Part shown: positions 50,468 through 57,603 of the stretch, in pieces
How positions within the stretch are numbered: position 1 is the stretch's first letter
Layout: each line of letters opens with the position of its first letter
Assembly: GCF_900155395.1 (NCBI RefSeq)
Contig: NZ_LT699728.1
Location: forward strand, 310,001 to 374,000
Direction: 5' to 3'
DNA length: 64,000 bases
Origin: Merdibacter massiliensis
GTDB taxonomy: Bacteria; Bacillota_I; Bacilli_A; Erysipelotrichales; Erysipelotrichaceae
Position numbers and translations under genes: made by a program
Notes under the pieces: generated by a model
The model's input: only the letters and a program-made list of their open reading frames with translations
The model's database searches: none
What the model was told of the DNA's origin: nothing

Positions 50468-51175
50468 TAATTTTGTCTCTATATATTTTTTGACCTCTAA
50501 TAAACTTTCATATTCTAGGGCACCTTTTATAGTTTGATTTTTAGTCGTTTCTATTTTTTTTAGCAGCTTATACTTTCCAGCATAGTTTGGCATATCAGAT
50601 AAATCATCTTTGATCCAAAACGGATGCATTTCACCCCTTAATGCAGCATTTACTCCCGCTATTGAATCTTCTAATACAATTGTATGCAAAGGAGAAATAT
50701 TCAAAAACGTGCATGCCTTTAAAAAAATTTCAGGATCAGGTTTGCTTTTAATAACACTACTACCATCTATGATAATATCAAAAATCATCGGAATCTGTTC
50801 CACATCTAACCAATATAGAATTGTATCCATTGTGCTACCTGAGCATAGTGCTATTTTCATACCTATTCCTTTTAAATAGTTCAATAATTCTAATAATCCT
50901 TTTTTCTTTCCAACCTTTACCCGCCTCTTTAACCTTTGATTACGTATTTCGATGATTGTATCCCTAAACGACCGTGTAGGAGCCTCTTCTCCATATAAAG
51001 TGATTAGCTCTTTCCTTATATCCTCATCATTTCTTCCTGTCAGATATTCATAGACCTCATAACTCATTTCAAAATTCCATATTTGTGCGGATTCCAAATA
51101 TATTTGATATAAGAAACGTCCTGTTTCTATCATTAGACCATCCATATCAAATATGACTAATTGTATATCATCCAT
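50459..51175 (-). CDS. HAD-superfamily phosphatase, beta-phosphoglucomutase-like
   Basis: The 238-aa protein has the HAD motifs in order: DMDGLMIE (nucleophile Asp), CSGS, and KSKPDPEIFL with ...EDSIAG. It is of the class with a helical cap, so it acts as phosphatase or phosphomutase on a small phosphorylated sugar or acid. The ATG at 51175 overlaps the aldolase stop (ATGGATGA); a start at 51196 would overlap more. It is last in the operon. In a PTS pathway it may remove phosphate from a dead-end or toxic sugar phosphate. Confidence 0.85.
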   Translation of the reverse strand: MDDIQLVIFDMDGLMIETGRFLYQIYLESAQIWNFEMSYEVYEYLTGRNDEDIRKELITLYGEEAPTRSFRDTIIEIRNQRLKRRVKVGKKKGLLELLNYLKGIGMKIALCSGSTMDTILYWLDVEQIPMIFDIIIDGSSVIKSKPDPEIFLKACTFLNISPLHTIVLEDSIAGVNAALRGEMHPFWIKDDLSDMPNYAGKYKLLKKIETTKNQTIKGALEYESLLEVKKYIETKLRV

Positions 51176-51782
51176 TAACTTTTTGCACAAGTTCATTCAG
51201 TTTTCTTTGCGCTTCCTGAGGATCTTTTTGGACATCTTTTTCAGATATGATGAAAGAGCCCCCTACTGCTACTACACGATCATTTGCCAAGTAGTCCAAA
51301 CAGTTTTCACTGTTTACACCGCCGGTTGGCAAAAAGCGTACATCATAAAATGGGCCACTTAATGATCGAATAGCTGTCACACCACCGTAAATATCAGCTG
51401 GAAAAAATTTAACAGTATGGATACCATAATTCAATGCTGATTGTATGTCCCTTGGTGTTGCCACTCCCGGTATTACAGGAATATCTTTTTCAATACAGTA
51501 TTGAACAACTTCGTCAACCAAAGCAGGTGACACTATAAAACGTGCTCCATTTGCAATAGCATCCTCCGCTTCTTTCTTTGTTCTAACAGTTCCTGCACCA
51601 ACAATCAATTTACCAGAACGGGATAAAATCTTGATTGCTTCTAATGCCAGATGACTTCGAAAAGTAACTTCAATAAACGGCACTCCCGCATTTACTAAAA
51701 TACTTTCTAATTGTGGTAAGCAATGCAGATCTGTCACAGTATAAAGAGGTAATAACTTTACTTTTTCTAATTGCTCGATCAT
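51168..51782 (-). CDS. eda: 2-keto-3-deoxy-6-phosphogluconate aldolase (KDPG/KHG)
   Basis: The 204-aa class I aldolase splits KDPG into pyruvate and glyceraldehyde 3-phosphate. PLYTVTD, FIEVTFRS, IVGAGTVRTK and the Schiff-base lysine in VKFFPA are all present, with LPTGGV near the end. Length is typical. Its ATG overlaps the UxuA-like stop by 4 nt (ATGA), and its stop overlaps the phosphatase start by 8 nt, so the three genes are translated together. No KDG kinase gene is in the cluster to make its usual substrate. Confidence 0.94.
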   Translation of the reverse strand: MIEQLEKVKLLPLYTVTDLHCLPQLESILVNAGVPFIEVTFRSHLALEAIKILSRSGKLIVGAGTVRTKKEAEDAIANGARFIVSPALVDEVVQYCIEKDIPVIPGVATPRDIQSALNYGIHTVKFFPADIYGGVTAIRSLSGPFYDVRFLPTGGVNSENCLDYLANDRVVAVGGSFIISEKDVQKDPQEAQRKLNELVQKVNG

Positions 51783-52858
51783 TTTTTCCCTTCTTCCAAT
51801 CTTGATTTACAAATAGCTTCATATAGCCCTTTCAGATACATAAAACCTAATGCCCTATCGTATAAACCATACCCTGGCATAGCTACTTCGTCCCATATTT
51901 TTCGGCCATGATCAGGACGAATGACACCATCAAAATGGATTTCTATTAAAGCCTTCATCAATTGATACATATCAAAAGACCCGTCTTCCGAACAATGTGC
52001 ACTTTCACGGAATTTTTGTTCTCCTAAAAACTCAATATTACGCAAATGGACAAAATGAATCCTACCTGCTAATTCATGTATTACTTGTACCAAATTAGTT
52101 TCTGGATTCGCCCCAAGAGATCCTGTACATAAAGTAACACCATTGTATGGAGAATCGACAGCTTTTAAAATGCGTCTATAATCTCGTAAATTCTTTGTGA
52201 TTCTTGGTAAACCAAATATTTCCCAAGGAGGATCATCCGGATGGATTGCCATTTTTACATCTACCTGTTCGCATACCGGAATGACTTTTTCTAAGAAATA
52301 TTTTAAATTATTAAACAGATCTTCCTCTGTCATACCTTTATACAAATCCGCTAATACATTAAATTTTTTCAATCTCTCTTCTTCCCATCCCGGTAATTGA
52401 AAACCATTGGCTTGCGAATTCACCAATTGAAACATTTGTGAAGCATCCATATCTTTTAATGTATTTTGATCAAAAACCAATGAATAGCTTCCATCTGGAT
52501 TTTTATAATTTAAATCTGTTTTAGCCCAACCGAAAATTGGTTTAAAGCTATAACAAACAAGATGAATTCCACAAGCAGATAAATTTTTTATCGTTTCTAT
52601 ATAATTATCAATGTACTTATCTCTTTCACCTGTTCCTGCCTTGATTGCATCATGTACGGCTACACTTTCAATTCCAAGAAGTTCTAATCCTTCTTTTTCA
52701 ATAGAAGATTTAAACTTTTTAATTTCTTCCTTTTCCCAAACTTCACCAGGTAATTTGCCTAGTAAAGTTCCTACAACACCATCCGTACCCGGAATTTGAC
52801 GAAAATGATGTAATGGTATCGAATCTTTTTCACCATACCAGCGAAATCCCCACTTCAT
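51779..52858 (-). CDS. uxuA: Mannonate dehydratase (UxuA-like)
   Basis: The 359-aa protein follows UxuA enzymes, which dehydrate D-mannonate to 2-keto-3-deoxygluconate. Visible hallmarks are FRWYGEKDSIPL near the start, MAIHPDDPPW, TLCTGSLGA, HFVHLRNI and RPDHGRKIW, which hold the manganese ligands and the active-site His and Asp. It lies between a PTS IIA gene and the KDPG aldolase. Because the PTS delivers phosphorylated acids, a 6-phospho-substrate is possible here; this is inference. Confidence 0.93.
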   Translation of the reverse strand: MKWGFRWYGEKDSIPLHHFRQIPGTDGVVGTLLGKLPGEVWEKEEIKKFKSSIEKEGLELLGIESVAVHDAIKAGTGERDKYIDNYIETIKNLSACGIHLVCYSFKPIFGWAKTDLNYKNPDGSYSLVFDQNTLKDMDASQMFQLVNSQANGFQLPGWEEERLKKFNVLADLYKGMTEEDLFNNLKYFLEKVIPVCEQVDVKMAIHPDDPPWEIFGLPRITKNLRDYRRILKAVDSPYNGVTLCTGSLGANPETNLVQVIHELAGRIHFVHLRNIEFLGEQKFRESAHCSEDGSFDMYQLMKALIEIHFDGVIRPDHGRKIWDEVAMPGYGLYDRALGFMYLKGLYEAICKSRLEEGKK

Positions 52859-52873
52859 CCAATCATCTCCATT

Positions 52874-53311
52874 CTAAAAATCATCTTCCTCTTCTGTATC
52901 GTCAGCTGCATGCCATAAATCGATATTTTGTTTACCTTGTTCAACAGCTGCACTAGCTAATTCATGTATAGGGGTATTCAAAATCTGTGCATTGATTGCC
53001 TCTAACAAAACCGGCAAATTAACACCACCGATGACATATACATCATTTTTTAACGTATTCTCCAATGATGAAGTAGCAATCAATGATTGATTATATGGAC
53101 TAGCACTAATTAAATCTGTTAGCACAATTACTCCATCTCCTTGGTTTACTTTCGATATAGCTTCTGTGATTTTTCCAGACAATTTCTGAACATCTTCTCC
53201 TGCCAAAAGATTTACAGTCGCAATATTATTTGTTTCTCCCATGATTACTTCTGCTGCATCTTTTAAACCATTGCTAAAAGTTCCATGTGTTGCAATTACA
53301 ATTCCTAACAT
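52874..53311 (-). CDS. PTS component IIA, mannose family
   Basis: The 145-aa protein has IATHGTFS with phosphohistidine His9 near the N-terminus, as in the IIA domain of mannose-type systems. It receives phosphate from HPr and gives it to IIB. It ends in a long acidic tail. Its start overlaps the M28-like membrane protein gene by 7 nt. This is separate from the IIB, IIC and IID genes further upstream in the same operon. Confidence 0.92.
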   Translation of the reverse strand: MLGIVIATHGTFSNGLKDAAEVIMGETNNIATVNLLAGEDVQKLSGKITEAISKVNQGDGVIVLTDLISASPYNQSLIATSSLENTLKNDVYVIGGVNLPVLLEAINAQILNTPIHELASAAVEQGKQNIDLWHAADDTEEEDDF

Positions 53312-54186
53312 AGCATCTCCCTCATTACCTTCATAAAGGTCTCTATATTCTTTTCTTCAATTACCTTCTGATTCAATTGTTTTTTTGTTAACATCAATCC
53401 TTTTGAGTTTTTATCTGCACTGATCCAAACATTTACATCATTTTCTTTTGTATACCAATCAATTGAATATTTATCTAATATTTCTTGTGAAAAATCTCGA
53501 CCAAGGACATGTAATGGAGCATGTGCGCCAATTGAATCAAGATAATAAATCTTACAGTCCTTTGGAAGTGAATCCTTCATTGCTTCCAATCCCAAATCAC
53601 CTTGACAACCTTTGTCTAGAAACGCAAATACGACATCTTTCCGTTTATTATCACGTATCATCTGTAACAAGCAAAGAATGGATGATGTATTGCGTATCAG
53701 ATTTTTTCTATTTAATTGACCTTTGGAGACTTTCGCTAAAAAAACAAAATAAATACCAAAAAGCATAGATACTACAAGGGTCTTCCAAGAAAAGAAAGAA
53801 AATCCCTGTGAAATACTCTTCATATAAAACAGCGTTAATCCTACACCAATTGCTAACGTAATGAGTGCATAAAAAATATTTTTAATCATAGTTTGTTTTT
53901 TTTGACTCTCTATTTGAAAAAAATAGTATGGGCCCCAATAGGAAAGCGGTGTATCGAAATAGGTACAAATCATTACATTAGCATGCTTCAGATCTCCAAC
54001 ATACACATTCTGTGATGATTCCTTTCCATTAGATTGAAATTCTATGACCTGAATGTTCTTCGTAATTTGCAAGATATCATGAACTAGTGCTTGTACCATC
54101 TTTTTCTTATTTTTTAGAGTTGATCTATTCTTTAATATATATTGATAATGTAAGATCCAGTCTTTATATTGTTCTTTCGCATTCAT
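53305..54186 (-). CDS. Membrane protein with a degenerate M28-peptidase-like fold
   Basis: I know no named family. The 293-aa protein lies between PTS genes, with two membrane helices (about 102 to 122 and 134 to 152). The soluble parts read like an M28 aminopeptidase split by these helices: MICTYFDT at the place of the usual HxD strand, NTSSILCLLQM for the DNxSG helix, VVFAFLDKGCQGDLG for the EExG loop, and IYYLDSIG for the next Asp. Most metal ligands are missing (no His, no Glu-Glu), so it is probably not a peptidase. The ATG at 54186 is placed best behind GGAG. It overlaps the IIA gene by 7 nt. Role unknown; perhaps a structural or sensing partner of the PTS. Confidence 0.5.
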   Translation of the reverse strand: MNAKEQYKDWILHYQYILKNRSTLKNKKKMVQALVHDILQITKNIQVIEFQSNGKESSQNVYVGDLKHANVMICTYFDTPLSYWGPYYFFQIESQKKQTMIKNIFYALITLAIGVGLTLFYMKSISQGFSFFSWKTLVVSMLFGIYFVFLAKVSKGQLNRKNLIRNTSSILCLLQMIRDNKRKDVVFAFLDKGCQGDLGLEAMKDSLPKDCKIYYLDSIGAHAPLHVLGRDFSQEILDKYSIDWYTKENDVNVWISADKNSKGLMLTKKQLNQKVIEEKNIETFMKVMREMLC

Positions 54187-54252
54187 ATTCATGTCTCCAA
54201 TAAGAAGGTAAGGGAAGTAAAATTCCCCTTTTCCTTATTAATTCATTCAATT

Positions 54253-54756
54253 CTAAAATTGACTAACAACATCTTTTAAATCAGTCTTTGATGCAGCAGG
54301 TGTGGATTGAAAATATATATCCTCTACGCCATATTGTTCTTTCATTTCGACTAATTTATCAACATCTGTTTTATTAATGTATACAGATTTAGTTACAAAT
54401 TTGTCTGTATCTGGATTCTTTTGTGCAATTCCGCCTATGTTCAATTCTTTCATAGGCACACCATGCTTTGCCAATTGATACATAGTATCTACTGTTTTTG
54501 CAATTAAAATGCAGTTATAATCTTTATATTTATATTCATCCCAATACATCTTTGCTTTTTCTAGCGTAATGACAATTGTCTTCTTTCCTGTACGGGCACC
54601 AGCATTTTTAAATAATTCACGCATGAATTTATCTTTTGCAACGACATCATCGACAACAAAGATAGAATTTACACCTGCTTTTTGAGATAACGTCATCATA
54701 ACCTGTCCATGAATCAAACGTTCATCGACACGTGCTAAATTTATTGTTCCCATCAT
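54253..54756 (-). CDS. PTS component IIB, mannose/sorbose family
   Basis: The 167-aa protein has RVDERLIHGQV with phosphohistidine His16. It carries phosphate from IIA to the sugar handled by IIC/IID. Length is typical for a free-standing mannose-type IIB. It is followed by the M28-like gene. Confidence 0.94.
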   Translation of the reverse strand: MMGTINLARVDERLIHGQVMMTLSQKAGVNSIFVVDDVVAKDKFMRELFKNAGARTGKKTIVITLEKAKMYWDEYKYKDYNCILIAKTVDTMYQLAKHGVPMKELNIGGIAQKNPDTDKFVTKSVYINKTDVDKLVEMKEQYGVEDIYFQSTPAASKTDLKDVVSQF

Positions 54757-54766
54757 TGTCCTCCTT

Positions 54767-55621
54767 CTATAGAATTCCTATAGCTGCTAAAACAATTAAG
54801 ATCAAAGTCAACCAAAGTAACGCTTGTGTAACTTTTAGACCTTTTTTATTAAAATAGAAGAATACACCCATTACGACTGCTAATGGTAAAATACCTGGCA
54901 ACACGGTATCTAAAATATCTTGTACGATAAACTCTTTCCCTGAAATAGTAAATTGCAATGATGAAGAAACTTTTACGTATTGACCAGCTAAGATTCCCAT
55001 CATATAAAGACCTAATACAGATAATGTATCAATAGCTGTTTGTACACCCGTACTTCCCATGAGGCTTGTTGCATTACGCCCCATATCAAATGCTTTATGT
55101 GCAAAAAACAGTCCAAGGATTACCTGATATAAGGCAAAGAATACAAATGGGAATAATGCACCCAGTGGGCTTCCTTGTTCAGCCCAAGGAACTGCAATAG
55201 CAATAAAGATATATTGAATCGTACCGGAATCAATTGCATCACCAATTCCAGCTAACGCCCCCATCAAACCAGCTTTCGTATTATACATCAAGTCGTCTTT
55301 CATTGTGATTTCTGCATTTTCATATTCTTCTTTAGCGCGCTGTTGTTCCATTGATGCCATCAAACCTGTGATAACACCACCTCCCCAGCTCAACTGCGTA
55401 TTAAAGAATAATAATTGACGTTGATATGCTTCGCGTCTCTTTTCTGGATCTTTATACAATTTTTTTAATACAGGCTGCATTGCATAAAGCAAAGATGGAG
55501 CCAAATAACGTTCAAATGAATGTGGAATCTCATTTGCAAAATGCCATCTTAAATACGCTTTGGTAATATCTTTTTTTGTCAGCTCTTCAGGAGCTTGTAC
55601 TTCTTTCATTTTATCTGTCAT
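54767..55621 (-). CDS. PTS component IID, mannose family
   Basis: The 284-aa protein starts with the cytoplasmic stretch LTKKDITKAYLRW typical of IID, then the helix of SFERYLAPSLLYAM and the conserved GLMASMEQQ region, and has several membrane helices towards the C-terminus. It forms the sugar channel with IIC. It is 20 nt behind the IIC gene. Confidence 0.93.
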   Translation of the reverse strand: MTDKMKEVQAPEELTKKDITKAYLRWHFANEIPHSFERYLAPSLLYAMQPVLKKLYKDPEKRREAYQRQLLFFNTQLSWGGGVITGLMASMEQQRAKEEYENAEITMKDDLMYNTKAGLMGALAGIGDAIDSGTIQYIFIAIAVPWAEQGSPLGALFPFVFFALYQVILGLFFAHKAFDMGRNATSLMGSTGVQTAIDTLSVLGLYMMGILAGQYVKVSSSLQFTISGKEFIVQDILDTVLPGILPLAVVMGVFFYFNKKGLKVTQALLWLTLILIVLAAIGIL

Positions 55622-55641: not shown

Positions 55642-56475
55642 CTAGAATCCATCATCATAATCATCATCTGACAATTCAACAACATTATTAGCTGTTTCAG
55701 TTGAAGGTCCCGTTTTCGTATTCTTTTGTGATAGTACAAATATGATGGCAATGATTACACCAAAGATTGCATAAGTTACCATTGTAATGCCTAAGCTAGC
55801 AAAACTAACACTCATGAAATAAGCTAAGAAGAAGAATGGCAAAAATTCTTTACGTCCAATAACATATACAGTAGTTGCAATACCGATAGCTGCCAAGCCA
55901 CCACCAACAACATCTAATATATGAATCACAACAGTTCCTTCCAATGCATTGATTACATCTGCGATAACTGGTGCACCAAAATACAATGCAATAAATACCA
56001 AAGGTACGAACAAAATAAATGAAGCTATAGTCGGGTATGCAATGACTGAGCGAGCAATCGCACGATCATTCAAAGATTCAACAGCTTTATCTGTATATTT
56101 ACCTAAGAAAGTATTGATGAAGAAACGTAACTGGTATAGATAACTACCTAACAGACCTACTGGAACAGCAACAGCAATAGCAGATTCGGCACTTAAATGT
56201 CCTAATAATGCAACCGGGACAGCAATTGCTGCAGCAATTGAAGGCTCACTAGGCATAGAACCGCCTGGTGAAAAGACACCCATGTAAATCAACTGTAATG
56301 CAGCTGTAACAACCATTGCTTGTGCAACTTCGCCCATTACAACACCACAGATCAGTCCTGTCATCAATGGTGAAAAACGCAATGTTAATGTAGCACCACC
56401 TAATAGCCAACGTGACATAACGCATGCTACCCAGATGGCAATCAACAAACTTTGCATAACACTTAAGGTTTCCAT
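55642..56475 (-). CDS. PTS component IIC, mannose/sorbose family
   Basis: The 277-aa membrane protein has about six to seven helices and the family loop MQSLLIAIWVACVMSRWLLG at the N-terminus, followed by LMTGLICGVVMGEVAQAMVV and the GVFSPGGSMPSEPSIAAAIA region that faces the substrate. The tail is acidic. It is first of the transport genes, 18 nt behind the glycerol-dehydrogenase-like gene. Confidence 0.93.
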   Translation of the reverse strand: METLSVMQSLLIAIWVACVMSRWLLGGATLTLRFSPLMTGLICGVVMGEVAQAMVVTAALQLIYMGVFSPGGSMPSEPSIAAAIAVPVALLGHLSAESAIAVAVPVGLLGSYLYQLRFFINTFLGKYTDKAVESLNDRAIARSVIAYPTIASFILFVPLVFIALYFGAPVIADVINALEGTVVIHILDVVGGGLAAIGIATTVYVIGRKEFLPFFFLAYFMSVSFASLGITMVTYAIFGVIIAIIFVLSQKNTKTGPSTETANNVVELSDDDYDDGF

Positions 56476-56493: not shown

Positions 56494-57603
56494 TTAATCT
56501 TCATATTTTTTCATGTATTCTTCAAGTTCGTATAAAGCTTGTTTTAGTGTAGTGACATTCACCTCAGTCGGTATCAAATGTACTTTTTGTTTGGAATCGA
56601 TAAATGCAACTAACTCGTCAATCACTTTTTCATCTTTTGGATAAAGCCCCATCTGATGCAGAGATAGCGGTAAGTTTAGATCCTTATAAAAAGGCATCAA
56701 TGAATCAATCGTTGACCAATGTTTTTCTAAAGCCATTTGATATAAGATCCCGTATGCAACTTTTTCTCCATGCAAGAATCGATGACTATCTTCTATTAAC
56801 TTTGCCATTCCATCATGCATAGCATGTGCCGCTGCGTTACGTGCATATTTGTCTCCTAATCCGCCACATAAACCAGCAACAGCAATGACTATTTCTGATA
56901 ATCGTACAAATTCATCACTGACATTCCCCTGTTTCATATCCTCAATCGCTTTTTTCGAATCACGTACGATTGCATCATTGCATACTTTTGCAACATAACC
57001 AGCCAACTGCGGAAATGTTTCGCTTTGTAGTTTCTCTTGTGCCAAAATACTTTCTGATTCATACCATTTTGCAATTGTGTCTGCTAATCCGGCAACGAAA
57101 TAGCGAACAGGCGAATCAATTGTCAAATATGGATCAGTAATCAAAAAGGCTGCCTGACGTTTAAAATGCTCTGTTCCACCTGTTGATGCACCATTCTCCT
57201 CATACATAACTGACAGAGGTGTCCATGGAGCACAATTGGATACTAAGGTAGGTATCAATCCAAAAGGAACATTTGTACAATGACCTGCAAAACCAACGAG
57301 ATCCGATAATTTTCCACCGCCAACGCCAATGATAAAATCGATATCTTTTTCTTCTACAATCTTCTGTATCAATTCCATTCCATAATAACTACATTCCCCT
57401 GTATATTCATGGAAGTAAAATGTACGATCAGGAAGATCTAAGAATTTTAAAAACGGTTTTGCTTTTTTCCAAGAAATTGTCCCATGCACAATCAAAATAT
57501 TTTGTGCTTTGTACTCGTCCAATAGTTGTGGAACCAAATCAATTGCACCCTTATGATAGCGGTAATACTGCGGTCCCACTTTCACTTGTAAATCTAATAA
57601 CAT
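56494..57603 (-). CDS. GldA/HcxA-like dehydrogenase
   Basis: The 369-aa protein belongs to the glycerol dehydrogenase branch of the iron/zinc dehydrogenases. NAD is bound around GVGGGKLSDL (about 93 to 102), and metal ligands are expected at Asp175, His260 or His263, and His278. It should oxidise or reduce a polyol or hydroxy acid. In this operon it may convert the PTS product, for example between a keto acid and its hydroxy form, much as HcxA does with hydroxycarboxylates. This is inference from context. Confidence 0.85.
   Translation of the reverse strand: MLLDLQVKVGPQYYRYHKGAIDLVPQLLDEYKAQNILIVHGTISWKKAKPFLKFLDLPDRTFYFHEYTGECSYYGMELIQKIVEEKDIDFIIGVGGGKLSDLVGFAGHCTNVPFGLIPTLVSNCAPWTPLSVMYEENGASTGGTEHFKRQAAFLITDPYLTIDSPVRYFVAGLADTIAKWYESESILAQEKLQSETFPQLAGYVAKVCNDAIVRDSKKAIEDMKQGNVSDEFVRLSEIVIAVAGLCGGLGDKYARNAAAHAMHDGMAKLIEDSHRFLHGEKVAYGILYQMALEKHWSTIDSLMPFYKDLNLPLSLHQMGLYPKDEKVIDELVAFIDSKQKVHLIPTEVNVTTLKQALYELEEYMKKYED

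Follow-up and report, generated by a model that had tools for sequence, protein, structure and literature searches.

Textbooks describe the mannose-family PTS as an importer of four parts. In the locus studied here the genes for two of those parts, IIB and IIA, flank a further gene, which we call X. What kind of protein does X encode, and what might that protein do beside an importer? The locus lies in a stretch of 64,000 nucleotides of Merdibacter massiliensis DNA, the whole of which we refer to as the window. A preliminary description of the sequence had suggested that X keeps the order of the core elements of an M28 peptidase, has replaced the zinc ligands, and is interrupted by two membrane helices. 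Here we follow up these suggestions by structure prediction, profile comparison, neighbourhood analysis and phylogeny.

A gene within a mannose-type PTS operon

X is located between the IIB and IIA genes of a same-strand, mannose-type PTS run, which contains the following features.

51168..51782, minus strand: KDPG/KHG aldolase (PF01081, E 1.9e-55)
51779..52858, minus strand: mannonate dehydratase UxuA (PF03786, E 1.1e-140)
52874..53311, minus strand: PTS IIA, mannose type (PF03610, E 2e-26), its start overlapping the end of X by 7 nt
53305..54186, minus strand: gene X, putative membrane-anchored M28-fold pseudoenzyme, 293 aa from the ATG at 54186
54253..54756, minus strand: PTS IIB, sorbose/mannose type (PF03830, E 4.9e-37)
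54767..55621, minus strand: PTS IID (PF03613, E 2.8e-76)
55642..56475, minus strand: PTS IIC (PF03609, E 7.9e-55)
56494..57603, minus strand: iron-containing alcohol/glycerol dehydrogenase family enzyme (PF00465, E 4.5e-21)

A HAD-type phosphatase gene is also part of this run. The open reading frame of X spans 53305-54192 on the minus strand and encodes 295 aa when counted from its first ATG at 54192. Read by eye, a GGAG 8 nt upstream of the second ATG is better placed, which makes 293 aa the likelier length, and the preliminary description, which had begun the gene at 54186, was probably right to do so. The overlap with IIA that it reported is also there: X ends at 53305, and the IIA start codon occupies 53309-53311.

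Database searches with X itself returned little. Pfam gave no family at E<=10 and NCBIfam gave no match, so that X, although encoded among the IIA-IID genes of a mannose/fructose/sorbose-family PTS and overlapping one of them, has no homology to IIA, IIB, IIC or IID in either collection. A sequence search of the PDB found nothing credible (best row E 0.13). The first contig scan found no homologues of X; these emerged only with genome-wide searches and profiles. At E<=0.01, and counting homologues of all kinds, including those with intact M28 ligands, matches were present in 68 of the 272 Erysipelotrichaceae genomes and in 31 of the 59 genera. The existence of homologues, together with the low dN/dS reported below, rules out that X is a chance reading frame.

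We took flanks of about 6 kb, shorter where a contig ended, around 114 homologue matches, of which 113 held X, and the window brought the collection back to 114 loci. These are mostly from Erysipelotrichaceae, although some search matches lie outside that sample and some stretches end with the contig; near-identical loci (e.g. L037/L038 and L058/L062) were counted as separate. Judged by the M28 ligands that could be read, 20 loci are intact, 87 are ligand-less, and seven have unreadable ligand columns and fall outside this split (L054, L094, L184, L185, L205, L207 and L209). In two of the 20 intact rows (L092 and L208) the alignment is gapped where the last His should be, and L183, although grouped as ligand-less, retains three of the six residues and matches the Pfam M28 family (E 9e-6).

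The predicted fold is M28-like and contains a membrane hairpin

The AlphaFold2 model of X, built on 78 aligned rows, had a pLDDT of 92.1 and a pTM of 0.88. M28 proteins topped the Foldseek list for this model: the Streptomyces griseus aminopeptidase 1qq9 ranked first (E 1.5e-7, TMq 0.54), LapA and glutaminyl cyclases were also among the M28 proteins, and the first non-M28 peptidase, TET aminopeptidase, appeared at rank 35. VIA gave Z scores of 19.7 for AaaA, 19.1 for BSAP and 18.8 for 3tc8 (211-226 residues at 2.9-3.6 A), and its list also included the transferrin receptor (Z 16.9). Structure prediction with fold search was the check that the preliminary description had proposed for an M28-like fold with core elements in M28 order, and the predicted model agrees with it.

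The two membrane helices said to interrupt the fold are likewise present, as hydrophobic segments between the strand at residues 73-78 and the helix at residues 165-181. The insertion thus falls between the HxD strand and the helix that follows the bridging-Asp loop.

53821..53877, minus strand: transmembrane helix 1 of the inserted hairpin, residues 106-124 (hydropathy; model helix 94-128)
53725..53781, minus strand: transmembrane helix 2 of the inserted hairpin, residues 138-156 (hydropathy; model helix 136-156)

The same two-segment hairpin is found in 87/87 ligand-less and 20/20 intact relatives, and its presence in the latter rules out that the helices are a mark of the inactive form. The 15 residues on either side of the hairpin carry 0.146 Lys or Arg per residue, against 0.093 in its loop, and 75 of 78 rows have more Lys and Arg in these flanks than in the loop. 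This is a moderate trend, measured with a loop that is shorter than both flanks combined. Under the positive-inside rule, the Lys/Arg-rich side of membrane segments is the cytosolic one. This composition therefore suggests that the M28-like domain of X is probably cytosolic, on the same side as IIA and IIB.

X has lost most of the M28 metal site

We aligned X with L100, an intact relative. The M28 residues at the corresponding positions of X are what we take to be a His ligand at 78, the bridging Asp at 167, the catalytic base Glu at 195, Glu at 196, Asp at 219 and His at 271. Five of these six metal or catalytic residues are changed, in line with the earlier suggestion that the zinc ligands had been replaced, and D219 is kept. 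All five features below are read from the alignment to L100.

53953..53961, minus strand: Y78-F79-D80 replacing the M28 HxD motif; the His ligand is lost and D80 is kept
53692..53694, minus strand: R167 replacing the metal-bridging Asp
53605..53610, minus strand: G195-C196 replacing the catalytic Glu and the Glu ligand
53536..53538, minus strand: D219, the sole metal-ligand position retained
53380..53382, minus strand: K271 replacing the second His ligand

The alignment between X and the intact proteins is sound, because hhalign matched the profile of the window's subgroup to the intact M28 relatives at 99.7% (E 1.2e-25); another PTS-associated group of X proteins matched them at 99.9% (E 7.5e-36). 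The Pfam family Peptidase_M28 (PF04389) was matched by four intact relatives with E values of 1.4e-15 to 5.4e-19, six ligand-less proteins in the same scan went unmatched, and all five of the intact relatives scanned for it matched. A profile made from eight intact relatives retrieves leucyl aminopeptidases in the PDB. By these sequence comparisons, X appears to be a descendant of M28 peptidases through intact membrane relatives. These intact proteins, which come from the same family and class and are the nearest intact relatives (e.g. L100, L098 and L181), share with X the hairpin and N-terminal Arg and Lys positions, and they differ from it in keeping the motif set HDDEEDH and, in 19 of 20 cases, in lying away from PTS genes.

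How were the lost ligands replaced in the rest of the family? Arg or Lys occupies the bridging-Asp position in 69 of the 87 ligand-less relatives. Among the 56 ligand-less loci that are linked to PTS genes the figure is 44, and 37 of these 44 keep Asp or Glu at the D219 position. We infer from this pairing that Arg or Lys may stand in for zinc in the former metal site by forming a salt bridge with the retained Asp. An active M28 peptidase is ruled out by the ligand loss as the identity of the window's X, as far as an alignment can tell, and X presumably lacks peptidase activity. It could instead be a retooled enzyme that catalyses a step of the pathway and needs no M28 metals to do so, since it is co-encoded with catabolic enzymes and is under purifying selection. 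We consider this very improbable, however: no more than two of the six M28 residues remain in any of the 56 PTS-linked loci, what stands in the place of the ligands varies from subclade to subclade rather than being conserved across groups, and the neighbouring enzymes change from operon to operon.

Ligand-less homologues recur in PTS operons

We examined the genomic contexts of the 114 loci. Of the 87 ligand-less loci, 44 are in a same-strand PTS run (gaps of up to 250 nt) and 12 more have PTS genes elsewhere within about 6 kb; 21 are in a run with a cardiolipin synthase gene (Cls), and ten have neither PTS nor Cls in the stretch, some of these being at contig ends. Among the intact relatives, one of 20 is in a PTS run and 19 are away from PTS genes. 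The immediate same-strand neighbour is a PTS gene in 34/87 ligand-less loci vs 0/20 intact ones. An IID gene occurs within about 6 kb of 50/87 ligand-less loci, above a background expectation of at most 6.5, and of 1/20 intact loci, where 1.55 would be expected; the expectations use IID counts per genome from a first look, and 12 per 2 Mb was assumed for the remaining genomes. The Fisher and binomial values for these comparisons ignore relatedness, for which the trees described below serve as a check.

The preliminary description had asked whether homologues always adjoin mannose-type PTS genes, and had held that homologues in unrelated contexts would count against it. The linkage is indeed recurrent and occurs in several gene orders, but it is not universal, given the Cls-linked loci, the ten loci with neither partner, and the intact relatives. 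Unrelated contexts are thus found in a sister clade, whereas in the window's own clade all seven rows are PTS-linked. That X is found only beside PTS genes is ruled out by the Cls-linked clade and the intact relatives.

Fifteen PTS/X order strings were recorded in all, some of them ended by the contig, and we counted only the seven that contain all four PTS components. The most frequent are IIA-IIB-IIC-IID-X (11 loci) and IIC-IID-IIB-X-IIA, the window's order (10 loci). The existence of seven full orders shows that we are not looking at a single operon inherited unchanged. The phosphorylation motifs of IIA and IIB are largely conserved beside X: [TSC]HG is present in 36 of 40 IIA proteins, with AHG in three of the other four, and R[LI][IVL]HGQ is present in 41 of 53 IIB proteins, with HGQ in all eight that were inspected of the 12 exceptions.

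The enzymes encoded beside X differ by operon, and include a uxuA type, an amidohydrolase with YdjC, and a SIS type; the amidohydrolase is NagA-like, below the curated cut-off. This diversity favours a role that is general to the PTS machine over a role tied to a single substrate. It also bears on the idea that the degenerate pocket of X binds a small ligand, such as an imported sugar phosphate, an amino sugar or a peptide, and signals to the PTS. In favour of this, the pocket region is conserved within groups: when nine members of one group were aligned, of which eight are PTS-linked, the motifs YDT, NRNTSG and LDC were invariant. Across the PTS-linked groups, however, the former ligand positions vary widely, beyond what would be expected for one type of ligand, and with the neighbouring enzymes differing between operons as well, we regard such a sensor as improbable.

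Several other features of these neighbourhoods were recorded. A single intact protein (HDDEEDH) belongs to a PTS run; this one, L098:5947-6933, is encoded two genes after IID, and is perhaps an active M28 relative already close to the PTS. The Cls-linked ligand-less proteins comprise G000:C12:198775-199707 (L108, L152) and 20 further loci, among them L058, L096, L110 and L186; one such protein is encoded in the window's own genome. The neighbouring cardiolipin synthase scored above the cut-off of TIGR04265 in the representative scanned, and the next gene in these runs is often a patatin-like or a chaperonin-like one, as judged from one scanned example of each. A small unannotated membrane protein, "sm167" (L043:6669-7172, L050:2060-2566, L060:3501-4034 and others), is encoded directly 5' of X in 14 of the 17 runs that hold it. 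Its model (pLDDT 82.4) combines a PH-like barrel with two helices, and its Foldseek matches are weak (best E 0.016). A second small protein, "sm161", is encoded next to sm167 and is often divergent. Finally, three equal-scoring copies of an X locus with IID lie 71,006 bases apart in G142:C1 (at 2336326, 2407332 and 2478338), which points to a tandem repeat of great length or to an error of assembly.

X follows particular permease lineages and evolves quickly

We constructed a tree of 110 X rows from which the ligand columns were excluded, and a tree of IID proteins. Both were quick searches without bootstrap, with weak deep forks, and the root of the X tree was not inferred. In the X tree, 19 intact rows and L183-L185 make up one starred clade, and 20 of the 21 Cls-linked rows make up another. 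The window's X is placed within starred clades of five and seven rows, every row of which is PTS-linked. Two changes between intact and not intact are required by the tree. L183 (5989-6879), L184 and L185 come from another family of the class and have wholly or partly lost the ligands within the intact M28 clade; no PTS genes are present within their fetched stretches, and theirs is perhaps a second, independent loss.

In the IID tree, five clades hold 46 of the 51 X-linked IIDs and none of the 30 X-less IIDs, the latter being those of 50 in five genomes whose loci came back. X therefore goes with particular permease lineages. Over these five genomes, 13 of 63 IIDs are within 7.5 kb of an X, and in the window's genome one of seven is, so that most mannose-type PTSs in these genomes have no X.

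Close pairs of ligand-less X proteins have dN/dS values of 0.03-0.18, with six pairs from PTS runs at 0.075-0.153, and ligand-less X is under purifying selection. The distant pair formed by the window and L032 gave 0.264, four pairs had saturated dS, and two intact pairs gave 0.10 and 0.14. At the same time, X is less conserved than its neighbours: its identity was lower than that of IIB in 19/19 pairs, IIC in 19/19, IID in 20/20 and IIA in 13/14. Such a pace, much faster than that of the PTS subunits, is odd for a core subunit.

This pace can be read in other ways. X might be an assembly or quality-control factor that inserts, folds or stabilises multi-pass partners (IIC/IID in one case, Cls in the other) and has no place in the working permease. 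That one family has two unrelated membrane partners, that its sequence changes fast beside slow partners, and that 50 of the 63 IIDs have no X within 7.5 kb are all consistent with this. The X-linked PTSs, however, form their own clades, which suggests a lasting partnership with particular permeases, and no chaperone signature was found in X by Pfam, NCBIfam or Foldseek. On balance we think this unlikely, though it is the alternative to which we give most weight. Fast change would also suit a guard, comparable to bacteriocin immunity proteins, that keeps class II bacteriocins or phages off the permease. The mannose-PTS is a known receptor for both (PMC8021565, PMC11008740). A guard role nevertheless seems to us remoter even than a retooled enzyme, because the low dN/dS of close ligand-less pairs argues against it and the Cls-linked clade would be left unexplained.

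A proposed accessory subunit of certain PTS permeases

An M28 shape without most of the zinc residues, recurring in PTS operons, makes X probably an undescribed, non-enzymatic part of the importer. The reading we prefer, with slightly more confidence than doubt, is that X is a dead, membrane-anchored M28 descendant, and that certain mannose-family PTS permeases have it as a dedicated accessory subunit with a scaffolding or regulatory part to play. The hairpin would be anchored in the membrane alongside IIC and IID, whose ManYZ counterpart has threefold symmetry and an elevator movement (PMC8021565). The pseudo-aminopeptidase domain would be in the cytosol and meet IIA, IIB or the cytosolic face of the permease. 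X would then work by binding and not by catalysis, as a scaffold or regulator either of phosphotransfer or of IIC/IID. Every step that leads from a shared operon to binding of the PTS by X is one that we infer. The Cls-linked sister clade can be taken to argue that partnering membrane proteins is the general trade of the family.

How does X compare with characterised proteins? With peptidase family M28 (PF04389), which includes the S. griseus, BSAP and V. proteolyticus aminopeptidases, it shares the predicted fold over residues 4-295, the order of core elements, the motif positions and a sequence ancestry by way of the intact membrane relatives. It differs from that family in the loss of five of six catalytic or metal residues, in the hairpin within the fold and in having no Pfam match. 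The animal transferrin receptor and nicastrin each have one terminal membrane helix outside the fold and an M28 domain that is extracellular or lumenal. These proteins resemble X in having an inactive M28 fold, a tie to the membrane and a non-catalytic function, which in X is putative. X is instead bacterial, has its hairpin inside the fold, is encoded with a PTS and probably has a cytosolic domain. Transferrin receptors are non-enzymatic relatives of M28B (PMC10794815).

A bolder version of the accessory-subunit proposal, which we hold tentatively and with rather more doubt than belief, is that X is a fifth subunit of the mannose-family PTS, a counterpart of nicastrin and the transferrin receptor that arose from a zinc-less, cytosolic-facing membrane M28 protein. 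One branch would serve permeases for many substrates and have moved with the operon between Erysipelotrichaceae and Enterococcus, and another would serve Cls. If this is true, pseudopeptidases of the membrane would form a class of general importance in bacteria, with control over the enzymes and transporters that reside there. A conserved dead-peptidase membrane protein in many PTS operons would add a layer of control or assembly to an importer that is also a receptor for many bacteriocins and some phages (PMC8021565, PMC11008740). X would also be a clear bacterial case of a peptidase turned non-enzymatic partner whose intact relatives persist in sister genomes. In a body of literature that takes in a minority of subscription papers, we found no description of such a protein under that heading or under accessory PTS parts, ManYZ or ptsD, so that X may be new.

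X is also found outside Erysipelotrichaceae

An order-wide search matched X in 72 of 264 genomes, all of them in Erysipelotrichaceae. A class-wide search matched 33 of 394 genomes, 11 of which are outside that family, and a phylum-wide search matched 21 of 382. Nine loci from outside the family were examined (L177-L185): six have an intact ligand set, L183 lacks three of the six residues, and in L184 and L185 one column could not be read. Three Enterococcus faecium plasmid records also match X, with 34.5% identity over 98% of its length. The plasmid that we read has the order IIC-IID-IIB-X-IIA-uxuA-HAD, in which PTS and X genes are arranged as in the window, and by eye the residues Y, D, R, G, C and D of the window's X recur in the plasmid's X. 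The class-wide search and this Enterococcus operon rule out a restriction to Erysipelotrichaceae. One published primer for the clinical E. faecium ptsD locus had no match (<=2 mismatches) in two plasmid stretches, and we claim no link to that locus.

On plasmid pVB3378_p4 (L257:2990-3856), a stop codon interrupts X, for which the annotation gives two hypothetical proteins, beside annotated PTS genes. Two further E. faecium plasmid records of the same length match X at the same position and with the same score. The stop suggests that X may be dispensable there. Is X, then, a decaying peptidase gene that is merely riding in the operon? This stop and a few other homologue matches with stops would fit such a reading, but the low dN/dS and the confident fold contradict it, the frames are open in nearly all listed rows, and X is kept in seven full operon orders; we find it scarcely credible.

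Two short contigs deposited as Listeria phages, L260 (OR848621.1) and OR847423.1, match X as well. The first of these, an unverified contig from wastewater, contains a PTS/uxuA segment that is by eye very like that of E. faecium, with X open over 288 aa. Since the contig that we read holds a segment of a bacterial PTS/uxuA operon, its label as a Listeria phage is probably wrong.
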